A stretch of 62,179 nucleotides of DNA, from contig JAFQTX010000040.1 in the NCBI GenBank assembly GCA_017408825.1, positions 1 through 62,179 of the forward strand, written 5' to 3'. The DNA is from Alistipes sp. (GTDB taxonomy: Bacteria > Bacteroidota > Bacteroidia > Bacteroidales > Rikenellaceae). The notes beneath the pieces were generated by a model. It made no database searches, was not told the DNA's origin, and was given only the letters and a program-made list of their open reading frames with translations. Positions within the stretch are counted from its first letter, which is position 1. Each line of letters opens with the position of its first letter. This document shows, piece by piece, positions 4,721 through 53,729 of this stretch. A program made the position numbers and the translations under genes.

Positions 4721-4985
<265 letters not shown>

Positions 4986-12321: not shown

Positions 12322-12450
12322 TAAGACAATTAAGATGGTTGCGGCCGAGAGCTCCAACGGCCGAGACCAACAACAGCCGAAACCAACAACGGCCGAGGCC
12401 ACAACGTGATACCCGACCTCGTAATGGTCTTAATGGTCCTAATGGTCTTA
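12322..12450 (+). repeat. Dispersed intergenic element, 9-mer arm type, copy 2
   Basis: The left arm TAAGACAATTAAGATGGTTGCGG runs into repeated CAACGGCCGA-type units. The shared core GATACCCGACCTCGTAATGG (12408-12427) follows, and then TAATGGTCC/TAATGGTCT 9-mers. It is directly followed by the GGGGAGACT array, so two element types are joined here. The whole interval 12302-12852 holds no gene. Confidence 0.9.
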
Positions 12451-12454
12451 AACT

Positions 12455-12595
12455 GGGGAGACTGGGGAGACTGGGGAGACTGGGGAGACTGGGGAGACTG
12501 GGGATGCTGGGGAATTTAAGGAGATTAGGGATAGTGATCCCCATTGTCCCCATCATCCCCATCTTCCCTGACATCGTCCCTGAAACCACTCCCCG
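12455..12595. repeat. GGGGAGACT 9-bp tandem array with inverted C-rich arm, copy 2
   Basis: There are five exact GGGGAGACT units (12455-12499), one GGGGATGCT and one GGGGAATTT. C-rich 9-mers such as ATCCCCATT, GTCCCCATC and ATCCCCATC (12537-12565) follow and are complementary to the G-rich arm. The 19-bp end TCCCTGAAACCACTCCCCG (12577-12595) is identical to copy 1. Confidence 0.9.
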
Positions 12596-12685: not shown

Positions 12686-12768
12686 CTTTTGTTAGCGGCG
12701 GTAGATGCGGCCTTATGGTCGAAAATTATTTTTGATTAGAGGGTCGTAGATGTGGCCTCGATTAAGAG

Positions 12769-12815: not shown

Positions 12816-12852
12816 GATTGAGAGGCCGCAGATGCGGCCCTATAATCGAAAA

Positions 12853-15684
12853 TTACATGCAGCGGCACACAAGATTACGATCACCATAACCATTATCAAT
12901 CTTGGTGACGTATGGGAAGAACTTACCCTCTACAATCCACTCGAGTGGGAATGCCGCCTCCTCACGAGAGTATGGGTGGTTCCACTCGCCAGCAAGCTCA
13001 CGTGCTGTGTGTGGAGCATTAACAACAACATTGTCGGCATTGCCCGAAGCTGCTGCTGCCTCACACTCACGCTTAATCTGGATGAGCGCCTCGATGAAGC
13101 GGTCCATCTCTGCCTTAGACTCACTCTCGGTAGGCTCAACCATCAAGGTCTCGTGTACAGGGAATGAGAGTGTAGGAGCGTGGTAGCCATAGTCCATAAG
13201 GCGGTGTGCGATATCGCCACAGTCGATGTTATAGTCGTGCTTGAAGCGTGTGAGGTCGAGGATCATCTCGTGACCTACACGACCAGTCTCGCCAGAGTAG
13301 TAGGTGCGGTACTCGTGCTTAAGTGCCGATGACATATAGTTAGCGTTCACGATAGCTATCTCTGTCGAACGACGCAAGCCCTCGTAGCCGAGCATACGGA
13401 TGTAGCCGTAGGTGATTGGGAGCAACATTGCCGAGCCCCAAGGTGATGATGATACGGCTGTGATACCCTCCTCGCCACCAGTCTCCATAAGTGAGTGGGT
13501 AGGCAAGAACTTAACAAGGTGCTCAGCAACGCATACAGGACCTACACCAGGACCGCCACCGCCGTGAGGCATTGCAAAGGTCTTGTGGAGGTTGAGGTGA
13601 CATACATCAGCACCGATATAGCCTGGATTTGTAAGACCTACCTGGGCATTCATATTAGCACCATCCATATATACCTGACCACCAGCATCGTGTACAGCAT
13701 CTACGATGTCACGAATACGGCTCTCAAATACACCATGAGTCGATGGATATGTCACCATCAAGCCATAGAGCTCCGAAGCGTGCTCTTCGGCCTTGCGCTT
13801 AAGATCCTCGACGTCGATATTACCATTCTCGTCGCAAGCAACGATAACGATCTTCATACCCGCCATAGCTGCCGATGCAGGGTTGGTACCGTGTGCCGAT
13901 GATGGAATGAGGATGATGTTACGATAGCCCTGACCACGGCTCTGGTGGTAAGCACGGATGATCATAAGACCGGTATACTCACCCGCAGCACCTGAGTTAG
14001 GCTGAAGTGTACAACCAGCGAAGCCTGTGATCGTTGCGAGGTAGCCCTCAAGGTTGGCGATAAGCTCACGATAGCCCTCTGCCTGGTCGGCAGGAGCAAA
14101 TGGGTGCATATTCTGGAAGCCTGCCAATGATAGTGGCTGCATAAGCTGTGCTGCGTTGAGCTTCATAGTGCAAGAGCCGAGCGAGATCATAGAGTTCATC
14201 AACGAGATATCGCGCAACTCAAGGCGCTTGATATAACGCATCATCTCGGTCTCTGTGCGGTATGAGTTGAAGATCTTCTCGGTGAAGAAGTCGCTCTGGC
14301 GCTTAACATCGTCGGCGATAGCTGCAGCCTCAACATGCTTTACGGCCTTAGCCTTCTTGCCACGTGCCTCAGCAAAGATCTCAACGATGGTCTGAAGCTC
14401 AGCATCGGTGGTCACCTCGTCGAACGACATACGCACGCAGTCGTCTGCAGGATAGTAGAAGTTAATCTCACGTGCAAGGGCGATATTCTGAATTACAGAA
14501 GCCTCAGCCTCCACCTCAATGGTATCAAACATAGCCTTGGTGCGTACAACGTAGCCCATAGCCTCCAAAGCGCCCTTTACAGTGAGTGCAGCGGTGTGTG
14601 CGTTGAGTGCTGCACGCTGCAAACCCTCCTTACCATTATATATACAGTAGAAACCTACCATCGAAGCCATAAGGGCCTGTGCGGTACAGATGTTCGATGT
14701 AGCCTTCTCACGCTTAATATGCTGCTCACGCATCTGAAGTGACATACGTAGAGCCTTATTGCCAAGACGGTCTACCGATACGCCGATGATACGGCCAGGC
14801 ATCTGACGCTTGTAGGCATCACGTGTAGCCATGTATCCTGCGCTTGGGCCACCAAAGCCCATAGGGCAACCAAGACGCTGAGTAGTACCTACGGCGATAT
14901 CTGCGCCCCACTCTGCTGGCGACTTGAGCAGTGCCAACGACAGTAGGTCGGCAACAGCGGTAACGGTGACGCCTGCCTCGTGAGCCTTAGCTGCGAAGTC
15001 GGCATAGTTGCATACCTCGCCATTAGCTGCTGGGTACTGCAAGATAGCACCGAACTCCTTGCCTGAGAACTCGTAAGAAGAGAAGTCGTCACGGATAATC
15101 TCGATGCCGAATGGCTCTGCACGAGTAATAAGAACGTCGAAGGTCTGTGGGAAGATATTCTCATCCACAAAGATCTGGTTGCGACCCTGCTTCTGAGCCT
15201 CACGTGAGCGCAAAGCATACATCATAAGCATAGCCTCAGCTGCTGCTGTAGCCTCGTCGAGCAACGAGCAGTTAGCCACCTCCATACCCGTAAGCGAGAG
15301 GATAGCTGTCTGGAAGTTGAGCAGAGCCTCAAGACGACCCTGCGAAATCTCGGCCTGGTAGGGAGTATATGAGGTGTACCACGCTGGGTTCTCGAATACG
15401 TTGCGTGACACTACGGCAGGCACTACGTTAGGATAGTAGCCCATACCGATAAACGAACGGAAAGTACGGTTCTTCGATGCAAGCTCTGCGATGTGTGCTG
15501 CATACTCGTACTCGCTCATTGCCTCAGGGAGGTCGAGAGCCTTCTTAAGGCGAATATTCTGTGGGATAACCTGCTGGAGAAGCTCCTCAACAGAAGCTAC
15601 ACCGATGGTTGCGAGCATCTGCTCCAGATCCTCTTTAGAGTTTAGACCTACGTGGCGGTCTACAAAGCTGTCAAAGGTTTTCAT
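12853..15684 (-). CDS. gcvP: Glycine dehydrogenase (decarboxylating), P protein, fused single chain
   Basis: This 943-residue protein carries both halves found as separate subunits in Gram-positives. The N-half starts MKTFDSFVDRHVGLNSKEDLEQML. The C-half contains the PLP-lysine motif HLNLHKTFAMPHGGGGPG and SSAHGTNPASA. The P protein decarboxylates glycine and passes the aminomethyl group to lipoylated GcvH; no gcvH or gcvT is in the window. It follows the nucleoside kinase gene by 29 bp on the same strand and is probably cotranscribed with it. No glycine riboswitch is seen in that short gap. The stop codon lies at the edge of a repeated segment (12831-12855). Confidence 0.97.
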   Translation of the reverse strand: MKTFDSFVDRHVGLNSKEDLEQMLATIGVASVEELLQQVIPQNIRLKKALDLPEAMSEYEYAAHIAELASKNRTFRSFIGMGYYPNVVPAVVSRNVFENPAWYTSYTPYQAEISQGRLEALLNFQTAILSLTGMEVANCSLLDEATAAAEAMLMMYALRSREAQKQGRNQIFVDENIFPQTFDVLITRAEPFGIEIIRDDFSSYEFSGKEFGAILQYPAANGEVCNYADFAAKAHEAGVTVTAVADLLSLALLKSPAEWGADIAVGTTQRLGCPMGFGGPSAGYMATRDAYKRQMPGRIIGVSVDRLGNKALRMSLQMREQHIKREKATSNICTAQALMASMVGFYCIYNGKEGLQRAALNAHTAALTVKGALEAMGYVVRTKAMFDTIEVEAEASVIQNIALAREINFYYPADDCVRMSFDEVTTDAELQTIVEIFAEARGKKAKAVKHVEAAAIADDVKRQSDFFTEKIFNSYRTETEMMRYIKRLELRDISLMNSMISLGSCTMKLNAAQLMQPLSLAGFQNMHPFAPADQAEGYRELIANLEGYLATITGFAGCTLQPNSGAAGEYTGLMIIRAYHQSRGQGYRNIILIPSSAHGTNPASAAMAGMKIVIVACDENGNIDVEDLKRKAEEHASELYGLMVTYPSTHGVFESRIRDIVDAVHDAGGQVYMDGANMNAQVGLTNPGYIGADVCHLNLHKTFAMPHGGGGPGVGPVCVAEHLVKFLPTHSLMETGGEEGITAVSSSPWGSAMLLPITYGYIRMLGYEGLRRSTEIAIVNANYMSSALKHEYRTYYSGETGRVGHEMILDLTRFKHDYNIDCGDIAHRLMDYGYHAPTLSFPVHETLMVEPTESESKAEMDRFIEALIQIKRECEAAAASGNADNVVVNAPHTARELAGEWNHPYSREEAAFPLEWIVEGKFFPYVTKIDNGYGDRNLVCRCM

Positions 15685-39392: not shown

Positions 39393-40163
39393 TTAATAGG
39401 ATCGTGGAACTATACGTATGCCCGCATCCCAGAACTTCTTCAGGGCACGATGTTTCTCATCATCGAGAATAAAGTCGATGTTGCGGGTGAGATATTCGTA
39501 TGCTGTAAGCCCATTGTCGGGGGCCATATATTTCGACTCGGTGATCGCCTCCCACGTATGCTCCACGCCAAATGTAAGTGCGTGTTGAAGCTCATCACAC
39601 ACCTCATAAGGCACACCCTTACGAGCTACCCACACCGCAAAGGCGAAGGGGAGCTTTGTAGCCTCACGCCACTCTATTGCAAGGTCGTAGGTATAGGCAA
39701 AACGGCCCTCGTAGCCAAATACCTTGTCGCCAATAAGTAGGAAGGCATCGCCTGGCTCGGGGTTATCAACACGTGAGTAGTCGGCCATATGTAGCCACTC
39801 GGGGCTTATACCCCACTTGTGCTTTGCCAAGTAGCCACACAACTGCACCGAGGTGCGTGAGTGGGCATCGAGCCATATGCGCTTAGTGCGATTTATTGGC
39901 TCGTTCGACACTACCACCACAGTACGCACAGCGCCCACAGCGCCTATACAGTAGTCGGTGATGATGTTTGTCTCCTTGAGTTCGGGTACTACAGCGGCGG
40001 GGAGCAAAGCTATATCGGCTCTACCCTCGATGTAGTTACGTGCACAGTCGGCAGGAGGTGCTAACGTCAAGTCGGCACGCAGGTTATCGGCGTGCTGAAG
40101 TCCATAGACGAAGGGTATCGTATTGAGATACGACACGGCAGTTATTTTTGGAATGAAAGCCAT
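39393..40163 (-). CDS. mqnA: Chorismate dehydratase MqnA (futalosine menaquinone route)
   Basis: This 256-residue periplasmic-binding-like protein begins MAFIPKITAVSYLNTIPFVYGL, the MqnA signature region. DLTLAPPADCARNYIEGRADIALLPAAV and WLDAHSRTSVQLCGYLA also match. It dehydrates chorismate to 3-enolpyruvyl-benzoate, the first step of the futalosine pathway. MqnD shares the fold, so misassignment is possible but less likely given the N-terminus. 124 bp without a gene (39269-39392) separate it from corA. Confidence 0.85.
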   Translation of the reverse strand: MAFIPKITAVSYLNTIPFVYGLQHADNLRADLTLAPPADCARNYIEGRADIALLPAAVVPELKETNIITDYCIGAVGAVRTVVVVSNEPINRTKRIWLDAHSRTSVQLCGYLAKHKWGISPEWLHMADYSRVDNPEPGDAFLLIGDKVFGYEGRFAYTYDLAIEWREATKLPFAFAVWVARKGVPYEVCDELQHALTFGVEHTWEAITESKYMAPDNGLTAYEYLTRNIDFILDDEKHRALKKFWDAGIRIVPRSY

Positions 40164-40360: not shown

Positions 40361-40477
40361 TTAAGACCATTAAGATAATTTAGACAGTTGCAGACAATGG
40401 CGATACCCGACCTCGTAATGGTCCTAATGGTCTCATTGGTCCTAATCGTCTTATTGGTCCTAATCGTCTCAAAAAAA
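40361..40477 (+). repeat. Dispersed intergenic element, 9-mer arm type, copy 3
   Basis: Left arm TTAAGACCATTAAGATAATT, then GACAATGGC, then the shared core GATACCCGACCTCGTAATGG (40402-40421), then degenerate 9-mers (TCCTAATGG, TCTCATTGG, TCCTAATCG, TCTTATTGG) ending in an A-run. It abuts hairpin D. A G/A-rich stretch (40261-40350) precedes it; no gene is present in 40261-40559. Confidence 0.85.
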
Positions 40478-40520
40478 TACCCCAGACGGAACATACTTAG
40501 CGTATTTCCCATCCGGGGCA
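40478..40520 (-). terminator. groEL terminator hairpin with conserved loop (hairpin D)
   Basis: TACCCCAGACGGA (40478-40490) pairs imperfectly with TCCCATCCGGGGCA (40507-40520). The loop is ATAC-TTAGC-GTAT. The A-run at 40471-40477 supplies the minus-strand T-tract. It lies 40 bp after the groL stop. Confidence 0.75.
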
Positions 40521-40559
40521 ATGTTTGAGAGGACTCAATCGCCCCCTTATCTTAATAGA

Positions 40560-42203
<1,644 letters not shown>

Positions 42204-45278: not shown

Positions 45279-45356
45279 AATCAATGAGTTTTATACCTGT
45301 TTTTACATTATATCAATAAAAGATTAACAAAGATATAAATTTTTTTTCACATTTTC

Positions 45357-45387
45357 TTTGCAAATCAAAAATATTGTTCTACTTTTG
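45357..45387 (+). promoter_or_regulatory. tRNA-Gln promoter
   Basis: TTTG (45357-45360), 19 bp, TACTTTTG (45380-45387), 18 bp before the mature tRNA 5' end. Confidence 0.8.
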
Positions 45388-45405
45388 CACCGTCAAACAG
45401 AGCAT

Positions 45406-45476
45406 TGGGCTATGGTGTAATGGTAACACTACAGATTCTGGTCCTGTCATTCTTGGTTCGAATCCAGGTAGCCCAA
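45406..45476 (+). tRNA. tRNA-Gln, anticodon CTG
   Basis: The acceptor stem TGGGCTA/TAGCCCA is perfect, the D-arm is GGTG...CAC, and the TpsiC loop is GGTTCGAATCC. The anticodon loop TTCTGGT gives CTG. The top anticodon-stem pair (A-C) is mismatched. CCA is not encoded. It has its own promoter and terminator and no tRNA neighbours. Confidence 0.93.
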
Positions 45477-45479
45477 CTA

Positions 45480-45509
45480 AAGCGGTCGAGTTTCTCGATC
45501 GCTTTTTTT
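45480..45509 (+). terminator. tRNA-Gln terminator
   Basis: AAGCGGTCGAG (45480-45490) pairs with CTCGATCGCTT (45494-45504) with one G-U, loop TTT, then a T7 run. Confidence 0.88.
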
Positions 45510-45558
45510 GTTAGTTATTGCAAGAGCCGTAGCCTGCGGCAACCACTGAGAGTAATTC

Positions 45559-45710
45559 TTTTAGGACCGTTAGGACCATTAGGACCATAAGACCATTACG
45601 AGGTCGTGTATCACGCTGTTGTTTCGGCCGTTGGCTGTTTGCGCTGCTGTCCGCAACCATCTTAATTGTCCTAATTGTCCCAATGGTCCTAATGGTCCTA
45701 AAAAAATAGA
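45559..45710 (-). repeat. Dispersed intergenic element, 9-mer arm type, copy 4 (most complete)
   Basis: Read on the minus strand, the left arm has four 9-mers (TAGGACCAT twice, TGGGACAAT, TAGGACAAT). TAAGATGGTTGCGG and CAGCGCAAACAGCCAACGG, CGAAACAACAGCGTGATAC and CGACCTCG follow. The right arm has TAATGGTCT, TATGGTCC, TAATGGTCC and TAACGGTCC. The two arms are reverse complements of each other, so the RNA could fold into one long hairpin with a core loop of about 85 nt. It lies between the tRNA-Gln terminator and the queA stop. Confidence 0.9.
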
Positions 45711-45770
45711 TACTTTAGGACAACTGCGCAGTCGTGGCCGACAAGGGCCACCAATAAGTCGGAATTGCCT

Positions 45771-47006
45771 CTACTCTTCACCCAGCGTGTCCACCTTCAA
45801 CAACGACGAGTCACCATAGCTCAAGAATCTAAAGTCGTTGGCCAGAGCATAATCGTATATACGATGCCAATCGTCACCCACATAGGCACTCACCAAGAGT
45901 AGCAACGTAGACTTAGGCTGGTGGAAATTTGTGATGATATACTTTACGATACGGAAGTGATAGCCAAGTGGCGTAATCATAATCTGCGTCGAGGCCTTCA
46001 TCTGCTCTATATCATTAGCCAGCATATACTCCTCGAGCATACGTAGCGCCTGCTCGCCCGAAAACTCAACGGGAATGTCATACAACTCCCACTGCCCCAC
46101 TGTGCGCTCAACATTTGGCTGACCGCAGCTCTTAATTCTCCAGGCAAGGGCCGAGAGCGACTCCAACGTGCGCACCGACGTAGTACCCACCGAGACAATA
46201 CGACCATAAGAGGCTCTAAGGCGCTGAATGGTGCTACGCTGAATGACAAAGTGCTCGGTATGCATAGGGTGATGTGCGGCATTCTCCTCCTTAACAGGCA
46301 GGAATGTACCTGCTCCCACGTGCAGCGTAACCTCCTCGAAATCAATACCTCGCTCACACATCGAAGCGATAAGCTCGGGGGTAAAGTGCAGACCTGCCGT
46401 GGGTGCTGCCACCGAGCCTTCATACTTAGCATATACGGTCTGGTAGCGGGAGTTATCAATCTCCTCGCTATCACGGTTAAGGTATGGCGGAATAGGAATA
46501 CGGCCGAGAAGCTCGAGAAGCTCGCCAAAGCTGAGGTCTACGCTCCACCTGAAGCGCACGATATGCTCACGTGTACCACGCTCAACAATCTCGGCACTAA
46601 GGCGCTGCTGCACACCCTCATACTCAAAGTTGATGGCCACCTCACCCTCTTTCCACTTCTTGAGATTGCCCACAACGCAACTCCACTCCGACTCGCCACG
46701 CATAGCAAAGGCACGTTCATAGTCGGCGGGGCGGTGAGGTTCAAGACAGAAGACCTCGATACGTGCGCCCGATGGCTTATGCATGACTATGCGCGCACGC
46801 ACGACGCGCGTATTATTAAATACGAGCATAGCACCTGCGGGCAGGTGGTCGGCGACATTGCGGAAGCGGCTCTCCGATATCGACCCGTTATCATAGACCA
46901 AGAGTTTCGACCCTGAACGCTCAGCAAGCGGAAACTTAGCTATTCGCTCGTTAGGCAGGTCGTAGTCAAAGTCATTGATATCTATATGACGCTCGGCGTT
47001 TTGCAT
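45771..47006 (-). CDS. queA: tRNA preQ1(34) S-adenosylmethionine ribosyltransferase-isomerase
   Basis: The protein has the QueA opening DFDYDLPNERIAKFPLAERSGSKLLV. MLVFNNTRVVRARI, PTAGLHFTPELIASM, EVTLHVGAGTFLPVK and NFHQPKSTLLLLVSAYVG are all family signatures. It transfers the ribosyl part of SAM to preQ1-tRNA on the way to queuosine. It is the last gene of the murA operon, 4 bp after the thioesterase. Confidence 0.96.
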   Translation of the reverse strand: MQNAERHIDINDFDYDLPNERIAKFPLAERSGSKLLVYDNGSISESRFRNVADHLPAGAMLVFNNTRVVRARIVMHKPSGARIEVFCLEPHRPADYERAFAMRGESEWSCVVGNLKKWKEGEVAINFEYEGVQQRLSAEIVERGTREHIVRFRWSVDLSFGELLELLGRIPIPPYLNRDSEEIDNSRYQTVYAKYEGSVAAPTAGLHFTPELIASMCERGIDFEEVTLHVGAGTFLPVKEENAAHHPMHTEHFVIQRSTIQRLRASYGRIVSVGTTSVRTLESLSALAWRIKSCGQPNVERTVGQWELYDIPVEFSGEQALRMLEEYMLANDIEQMKASTQIMITPLGYHFRIVKYIITNFHQPKSTLLLLVSAYVGDDWHRIYDYALANDFRFLSYGDSSLLKVDTLGEE

Positions 47007-53490: not shown

Positions 53491-53618
53491 TGAGACCGTA
53501 AGACAATTAAGATGGTTGCGGCAGGCAGCGCAAACAGCCAACGCCCGAAACAACAGCAGATACCCGACCTCGTAATGGTCTTATGGTCCTAATGGTCTTA
53601 ATGGTCCTAAAAAAAATT
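53491..53618 (+). repeat. Dispersed intergenic element, 9-mer arm type, copy 5
   Basis: Left arm TGAGACCGTAAGACAATTAAGATGGTTGCGG, then CAGCGCAAACAGCCAACG and CGAAACAACAG, the shared core GATACCCGACCTCGTAATGG (53559-53578), then TTATGGTCC, TAATGGTCT and TAATGGTCC 9-mers and an A-run. GGTTTTCAGACCGATCC follows at 53632-53648, matching 34798-34814. No gene is present in 53477-53776. Confidence 0.9.
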
Positions 53619-53729
53619 GAGCTCCCCACTGGGTTTTCAGACCGATCCCAATATGATAGCTACGCCCTCGGAACCTATCACCCCTCCTCAAACTTTTGCA
53701 TGAGGCTTTCATAATTGAGATTTTTTTCG

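Follow-up and report, generated by a model that had tools for sequence, protein, structure and literature searches.

The 62,179-nucleotide stretch of Alistipes DNA analyzed here (the window) carries, between its genes, several copies of a short palindrome with arms of repeated 8/9-mers, and the question that it raises is what kind of element this is. The initial annotation had offered two possibilities, a functional RNA or a small non-autonomous element. The evidence below makes it probable that we are dealing with a non-autonomous, non-coding palindromic DNA element, similar to MITEs and BIMEs, that spreads into intergenic gaps, often inside other palindromic repeats.

The five window copies on which the initial annotation rested are real. 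The core GATACCCGACCTCGTAATGG, referred to here as core A, lies at 4757 to 4776 (+), 12408 to 12427 (+), 40402 to 40421 (+), 45593 to 45612 (-), and 53559 to 53578 (+), and was found 0 times in 100 dinucleotide shuffles. Four copies are exact, and the minus-strand copy, which begins GATACACG, is inverted and differs at one base, as had been stated. Read along the core strand, this reported copy consists of a T-tract, AGGACCATT AGGACCATT GGGACAATT AGGACAATT, AAGATGGTTGCGG, a spacer, the core, and GTCTTATG GTCCTAATG GTCCTAACG GTCCTAAAAG. Its parts, followed by the other four copies, are as follows.

45560 to 45592, minus strand: right arm of 8/9-mers (GTCTTATG, GTCCTAATG and so on in the core-strand reading), outer limit set by eye
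45593 to 45612, minus strand: core A of the reported copy (GATACACGACCTCGTAATGG), found by pattern search with one mismatch
45613 to 45650, minus strand: CAACGGCCGAAACAACAGC-type spacer separating B' from core A, its length in one of the stepped classes
45651 to 45666, minus strand: inner motif B' (ATTAAGATGGTTGCGG), which pairs with core A as an imperfect inverted repeat
45667 to 45706, minus strand: left arm of 9-mers (AGGACCATT AGGACCATT GGGACAATT AGGACAATT) with an outer T-tract on the core strand, outer limit set by eye
4757 to 4803, plus strand: copy with core A at 4757 to 4776 and a right arm, without a left arm; then a B'-like motif at 4824 to 4839 and ACTGGGGAY repeats from 4849
12323 to 12450, plus strand: copy with left arm, B' at 12329 to 12344, long spacer, core A at 12408 to 12427, and right arm; ACTGGGGAG repeats from 12452
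40363 to 40478, plus strand: copy with short left arm, degenerate B' at 40378 to 40393, core A at 40402 to 40421, and right arm; it lies 3' of the minus-strand open reading frame (ORF) at 40560 to 42194
53492 to 53607, plus strand: copy with left arm, B' at 53506 to 53521, core A at 53559 to 53578, and right arm; downstream of tRNA-Thr

Arms, AAGATGGTTGCGG module, and CGAAACAACAG-type spacer match the initial description with two exceptions: neither a left arm nor a module precedes the core at 4757, and the copy at 40402 has a degenerate module.

The general anatomy was drawn from 97 de-duplicated copies in stretches fetched from the window's genome (G000; 1.89 Mb, 83% complete). Left 9-mers lead into B', the inner motif; a spacer whose length varies in steps separates B' from core A, after which come mostly four right 9-mers. 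Together they form an imperfect palindrome that spans 80 to 221 bp (median, 122 bp) in the 62 two-armed copies. Unit number, which had been said to differ between copies in both arms, does so on the left (0 to 8 units); the right arm is not freely variable, with four units in 61 of 97 copies. The spacing of left-arm units is 9 bp in 167, 8 bp in 37, and 10 bp in 1 of 205 intervals. A 9-bp period preserves the reading frame, but the common 8-mers shift it, and a coding peptide was rejected on this ground.

Copies were also collected through B' (up to three mismatches), without selecting on the core. Core A, with 0 to 3 mismatches, lay downstream of 83 of the 103 B'-like places in the fetched G000 DNA, and shuffled controls were never better than seven mismatches. 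The remaining 20 places had at least seven mismatches; by eye, they include chance places in genes and B' running into GGGGATACT repeats. The core is nearly but not strictly fixed, as had been claimed: its mean column diversity is 0.07, compared with 0.30 and 0.47 for the two 9-mers that follow (a contrast overstated by 8/9 register shifts), and the exact core occurs in 36 of the 83 copies reached in this way. The distance from B' to A is stepped, falling at 8 to 10, 14 to 15, 29 to 31, 36 to 38, 43 to 47, 60 to 63, or 73 to 76 bp, plus four longer values. When core A was aligned with B, the reverse complement of B' plus its flank, the score was reached by 11 of 5,000 shuffles. Because the two align better than shuffled sequences, a single imperfect inverted repeat appears to have A and B' as its inner ends; the AAGATGGTTGCGG module is the core's imperfect inverted partner. 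The inverted repeat is not strictly terminal, since the ends vary between copies. Inverted 8/9-mer arms with an inner A/B' pair fit a short non-coding inverted repeat of the MITE type. Some copies stand in tandem arrays with a period of about 75 to 145 bp.

The neighbors of core A copies in G000 are other repeats. Around 47 copies in a related genome, G038, a TTAG array lay within 160 bp on the left in 38 cases and its complement on the right in 19, with both in 14 and neither in 4; the opposite order was seen on the left in one case and on the right in none. Beside or around many G038 copies there are also TTAGTTGTTAGTTATTAG / CTAACAACTAA palindromes, often with a GCGCTC...GAGCGC hairpin (stretches L031 to L043 and L159 to L164). 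Another dispersed repeat, of about 190 bp (L159:8127-8320 in G038), occurs many times in the related genome G107, including four sites at which G038 has core A. Often directly after the core A element come 9-bp ACTGGGGAT-type arrays and then inverted ATCCCCAT arrays, which make up another palindrome with 9-bp arm units (window 4849 to 4893 and 12452 to 12505; L013, L019, L051, L055, L056, and L057). A repeat around TTTTCAGACTGATCC / GGATCAGTCTGAAAACCCGGTGGGCAGCTCAATTCTTTTAGGACC is an outer arm flanking some core A copies (window 53607 to 53648; L014, L018, L073, L086, and L136). A second dispersed hairpin family, TAATTT(N5-7)ATAAGG..., is found on the minus strand of the window at 12838 to 12855, 12711 to 12728, and 40545 to 40562 (two by a looser pattern) and in G000 stretches L012, L013, L017, L019, L021, L024, L025, L051, L053 to L055, L057 to L060, L062, and L083. 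In 22 of 31 fetched G000 copies, it opens with the TAA codon that terminates, in frame, an open stretch of at least 80 codons (in 3 of 31, another frame is concerned); several other copies directly follow a first hairpin. Within the long stem of this hairpin, the inner stems are interchangeable, and the apex is of the GTACTTNGGCGTAC type. In the more distant genome G102, there is an apparent tandem duplication of the tRNA-Thr 3' end plus a downstream block (L144, C5).

The expectation that further copies would exist genome-wide was borne out: G000 holds 136 core copies at up to three mismatches, against one match for the reversed control, and the core also occurs in relatives. At up to two mismatches, core A was found in 10 of 268 genomes of the family (G000, 129; G038, 96; G022, 14; G107, 8; G057 and G083, 2 each; G069, G077, G102, and G248, 1 each). 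The reversed control matched once in each of 3 of the 268 genomes, and lone core A matches are near this noise and possibly due to chance unless arms are visible, as in G102. Core B occurred in 11 of 180 genomes of the genus (G000, 75; G099, 30; G022, 20; G118, 10; G031, 2; six others with 1 each, four of them with two mismatches), with one control match. The arm pattern alone also marked 11 of the 180. No core B was found in G038 and no core A in G099 or G118; the centers are thus A without B in G038, B without A in G099 and G118, and both in G000 and G022. Arm spacing differs by species as well, with 52 eight-mers and 2 nine-mers in G022, 5 and 27 in G118, 18 and 50 in G099, and 131 and 81 in G038, each from part of that genome's copies.

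A 19-mer of the core (C/T at one place) matched 32 stretches in the GTDB collection, which may leave out records near the window's own genome. Twenty-eight of them were in three metagenome-assembled genomes (MAGs), namely SIG165 and SIG185 (both Rikenellaceae bacterium) and RGIG8749 (Alistipes sp.). A wide distribution was rejected; the remaining 4 of 32 were in unrelated genomes, about as many as expected by chance (estimate, about 4). A phage or plasmid origin was likewise dropped, given no exact 19-mer in IMG/VR and no blastn match of 45540 to 45720 in plasmid and phage collections with the low-complexity filter on.

Gene context was determined in 57 merged stretches (359,576 bases) containing 120 core matches, a set that is larger than the 97 copies above, is not de-duplicated, and was chosen for holding copies; genes were called by a simple codon-score script, and gaps of at least 100 bp were considered. 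None of the 120 core matches lay inside a called gene. Of the convergent gaps, 32 of 39 held a copy, compared with 31 of 59 tandem gaps and 5 of 21 divergent ones (Fisher's exact test, convergent versus divergent, P = 1.6e-5). Copy-bearing gaps are longer (medians, 563 to 640 versus 193 to 257 bp), partly due to the element itself. A first pass over the 97 copies had placed 36 in convergent, 43 in tandem (25 and 18 by core strand), and 8 in divergent gaps, with 10 incomplete; with respect to tandem genes, neither strand is strongly preferred. That all copies lie at 3' ends of genes thus describes a strong preference and not a rule: divergent gaps are occupied too, and the copy at 53559 has tRNA-Thr on one side and the beginning of the following plus-strand ORF on the other.

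Orthologous sites were compared in G038 and G107, a pair about 90% identical (mostly 86 to 94% in the tested blocks, which are syntenic). Three 20-kb stretches of G038, together with the locus upstream of the gene at 39393 to 40163, where G038 has a copy as G000 does, contained 17 core A places at up to four mismatches, with 0 for the reversed control in the larger stretches. Two places whose G107 flanks are on different contigs (L159:8035 and L160:15471) were left out, as was site 8, a further aligned gap that lacks core A. The 15 sites with both flanks in G107 (14 direct site pairs and L159:12010) had been selected for carrying core A in G038; G107 has it at none of them, nor was it found at up to four mismatches in the fetched G107 stretches L165 to L168. 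In its place, G107 has a bare TTAG/CTAA palindrome at sites 2, 3, and 9; arms around a run of A, without the core, at sites 4 and 5 (and 7, by eye only); a copy of another dispersed G107 repeat at sites 1, 10, 11, and L159:12010; other repeat-like sequence by eye at sites 12, 14, and 15; and neither palindrome nor other repeat at sites 6 and 13.

The direction of change is suggested at some of these sites. In G102, only about 130, 62, and 57 bp separate the flanking matches at sites 3, 4, and 6. Because so little lies between these flanks and the single core A of G102 is elsewhere, gain in G038 is the simpler reading there. Part of the difference between G038 and G107 could nonetheless be loss in G107. 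Among the 14 site pairs inspected by eye, one plausible target-site duplication was seen, a 7-bp GTATGGC repeat flanking the inserted block at site 13; none was clear at the others. No defined transposition unit emerges, since the boundaries are not the same from copy to copy and several of the gains are compound, including a GCGCTC hairpin. At the window's tRNA-Thr gene, stretches fetched from five relatives contained no core A. Not every position differs, since G022 also has a copy at the place of the window's tRNA-Gln gene, about 170 bp past a tRNA-Gln-like end; given many copies, some positional coincidence is expected. High copy number, bursts in few genomes, absence from called genes, and the difference at every comparable orthologous site together support the small non-autonomous element that had been proposed as one of two possibilities.

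The G107 sites also bear on an explanation without transposition, in which ectopic gene conversion or template switching between palindromes that share arms would swap the center like a cassette. At some orthologous sites, one and the same outer TTAG palindrome encloses core A in G038 and, in G107, either a short bare sequence (sites 2, 3, and 9) or another hairpin (site 15), as such swapping would produce, and the modular centers and a core less diverse than the arms agree with it. However, swapping alone would not seed new places, and sites 6 and 13 have no TTAG palindrome in G107. Long palindromes may also be tolerated in these genomes. In Escherichia coli, SbcD limits long palindromes, and an SbcD match (TIGR00619) above the cutoff was found in 0 of 32 family genomes, with the control over the cutoff in 8 of 14. 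There were 17 weak matches, and the one ORF inspected is by eye a membrane metallophosphoesterase. The lack of a recognizable SbcD may permit these long palindromes, but it is common to element-rich and element-poor genomes, and it was rejected as the cause of the bursts. On balance, we regard exchange without any transposition as unlikely.

The other possibility raised by the initial annotation was a functional RNA. On this reading, the palindrome, as a structured RNA or an element of 3' untranslated regions, would be transcribed, would act as a terminator, RNA stabilizer, or small RNA, and would be kept for that function. The preference for gene 3' ends suits it, as do the strong hairpins on both strands: in the 62 two-armed copies, the fold z averaged -3.9 for the core strand and -4.2 for the opposite one. 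The two strands do not differ, however (paired Wilcoxon test, P = 0.55). Raw energies favored the strand opposite the core (44 of 62 copies; mean, 4.0 kcal/mol; P = 4e-6), but the effect vanished after shuffling (P = 0.55), and a strand-specific RNA was rejected. In favor of an RNA, by our own reading, the common B variants CGCAACC, CGTGACC, CGCGACC, and CGTAACC keep U-U-G/Y-R-A pairing on one strand. We compared left with right arms in 35 of 46 copies, taking one per 3-kb bin and at least three units in each arm. The match of a left arm to the right arm of the same copy (16.77) was no better than that to the right arms of other copies (16.67; reached in 749 of 2,000 permutations), which argues against each copy being a selected hairpin. 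Rfam gave no match at gathering score at the element, and only two tRNAs in the window; the two permissive matches were to microRNA families far under their cutoffs (best, 22.1 bits versus 87). The sole terminator-like site in 45300 to 45800, at 45479 to 45505, comes just after tRNA-Gln and is not the element, and complete palindromes have, by eye, a T-tract on the left and an A-tract on the right, the reverse of the order expected for an intrinsic terminator. The functional RNA is thus not supported, and we hold this reading to be improbable. A putative protein-binding array, in which each 8/9-bp arm unit would be a site for a nucleoid protein or gyrase as proposed for REP/BIME, would explain RRGAC regularly spaced, direct on one side and inverted on the other, and the convergent-gap preference, but patchy presence (10 of 268 genomes) and species-specific spacing are so unlike a conserved housekeeping site that we give it very little credence.

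The remaining reading, a mobile palindromic DNA element, can be set against known repeats. The open-license PMC literature yielded no account of such an element in Alistipes, Rikenellaceae, or Bacteroidales, and the sections of PMC5771137 that treat Porphyromonas gingivalis repeats hold nothing on the present element. The statement that no named family has this design is fair for the sequence; the design itself is close to that of BIME, BOX, and BrickBuilt-type repeats. P. gingivalis belongs to the Bacteroidales, the same order as the window's host. Its MITE BrickBuilt, according to PMC4596501, has 23-bp repeats in mid-element between a distinct leader and tail, measures 84 to 991 nucleotides, and occurs in 19 copies in ATCC 33277. 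Like the present element, it is intergenic, non-coding, dispersed, and MITE-like, with tandem minisatellite units of variable number (PMC4596501). Unlike BrickBuilt, the present element has 8/9-bp units in both arms, a nearly fixed center, a median length of 122 bp, and more than 100 copies. PMC4596501 relates the BrickBuilt ends to IS5-family elements; their terminal motif GAGACCTTTGCA resembles present arm units such as GAGACCTTT.

The other two comparisons concern more distant bacteria. Palindromic structure, extragenic location, high copy number, a mosaic with other repeats, and enrichment between convergent genes are shared with the BIME/REP of enterobacteria and with the GTAG- and CGTC-tagged REPs (PMC3733652 and PMC1525189). 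According to these papers, REPs are 20 to 40 bp long and have a GTAG or CGTC tag, the GTAG kind being linked with RAYT transposases; unlike REPs, the present element has minisatellite arms and occurs in genomes with Y1_Tnp in 0 of 10. A GTAG or CGTC end tag was not noticed by eye in the element ends inspected, which vary. BOX of Streptococcus pneumoniae (PMC3049150) is likewise modular and dispersed, with fixed modules plus variable tandem units, a predicted stem-loop, and overrepresentation between convergent genes. In BOX, the variable unit boxB sits between boxA and boxC (PMC3049150), whereas the present repeated units flank a nearly fixed center. We regard the element as a new family of a known kind, with a nearly fixed center, minisatellite arms, exchangeable centers, and nesting in other palindromes.

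Two families of transposase were looked for. Y1_Tnp (PF01797; RAYT) was found in 0 of 10 genomes, including 7 that carry core A, and its control was positive in 5 of 14; these are draft MAGs, in which absence is not absolute. A RAYT/REP system is accordingly not supported. DDE_Tnp_1 (PF01609), which we take to be the usual transposase family of the IS5-type group, was found in 0 of 6 draft MAGs (control positive in 9 of 14). An IS5-type terminal repeat, suggested by the resemblance of the GAGACCTTT-like units to ISPg/BrickBuilt ends, is in view of this a weak candidate.

For the non-autonomous palindromic element that we favor, the following course of events can be proposed. Core A and B' would be the inner ends of an imperfect inverted repeat recognized by a recombinase, host or foreign, and arm units would grow and shrink through replication slippage. 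A copy would be moved to a new place, or swapped into the center of an existing palindrome, by recombination or a putative transposase. Selection against insertions near promoters would leave most surviving copies between convergent gene ends, and any effect on neighboring transcripts would be a by-product. A more tentative idea, which we think possible although doubtful, goes further: the nested palindromes of this genus might be recurring docking places whose centers are repeatedly replaced (core A, core B, A plus B, GCGCTC, and other hairpins), layering hairpins in gaps through hairpin-targeted recombination in a lineage without recognizable SbcD, and not through a classical transposase.

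For the family, one practical consequence is that intergenic hairpins in Rikenellaceae MAGs are not to be taken for conserved RNAs without covariation tests. The element also offers a natural series: from species to species, the center of one palindromic repeat, the length of its arm units, and its outer context change independently of one another. With two genomes that disagree wherever they can be compared, one can ask how palindromic repeats spread when no transposase is evident, and the element lets one ask how bacteria without recognizable SbcD handle long palindromes.
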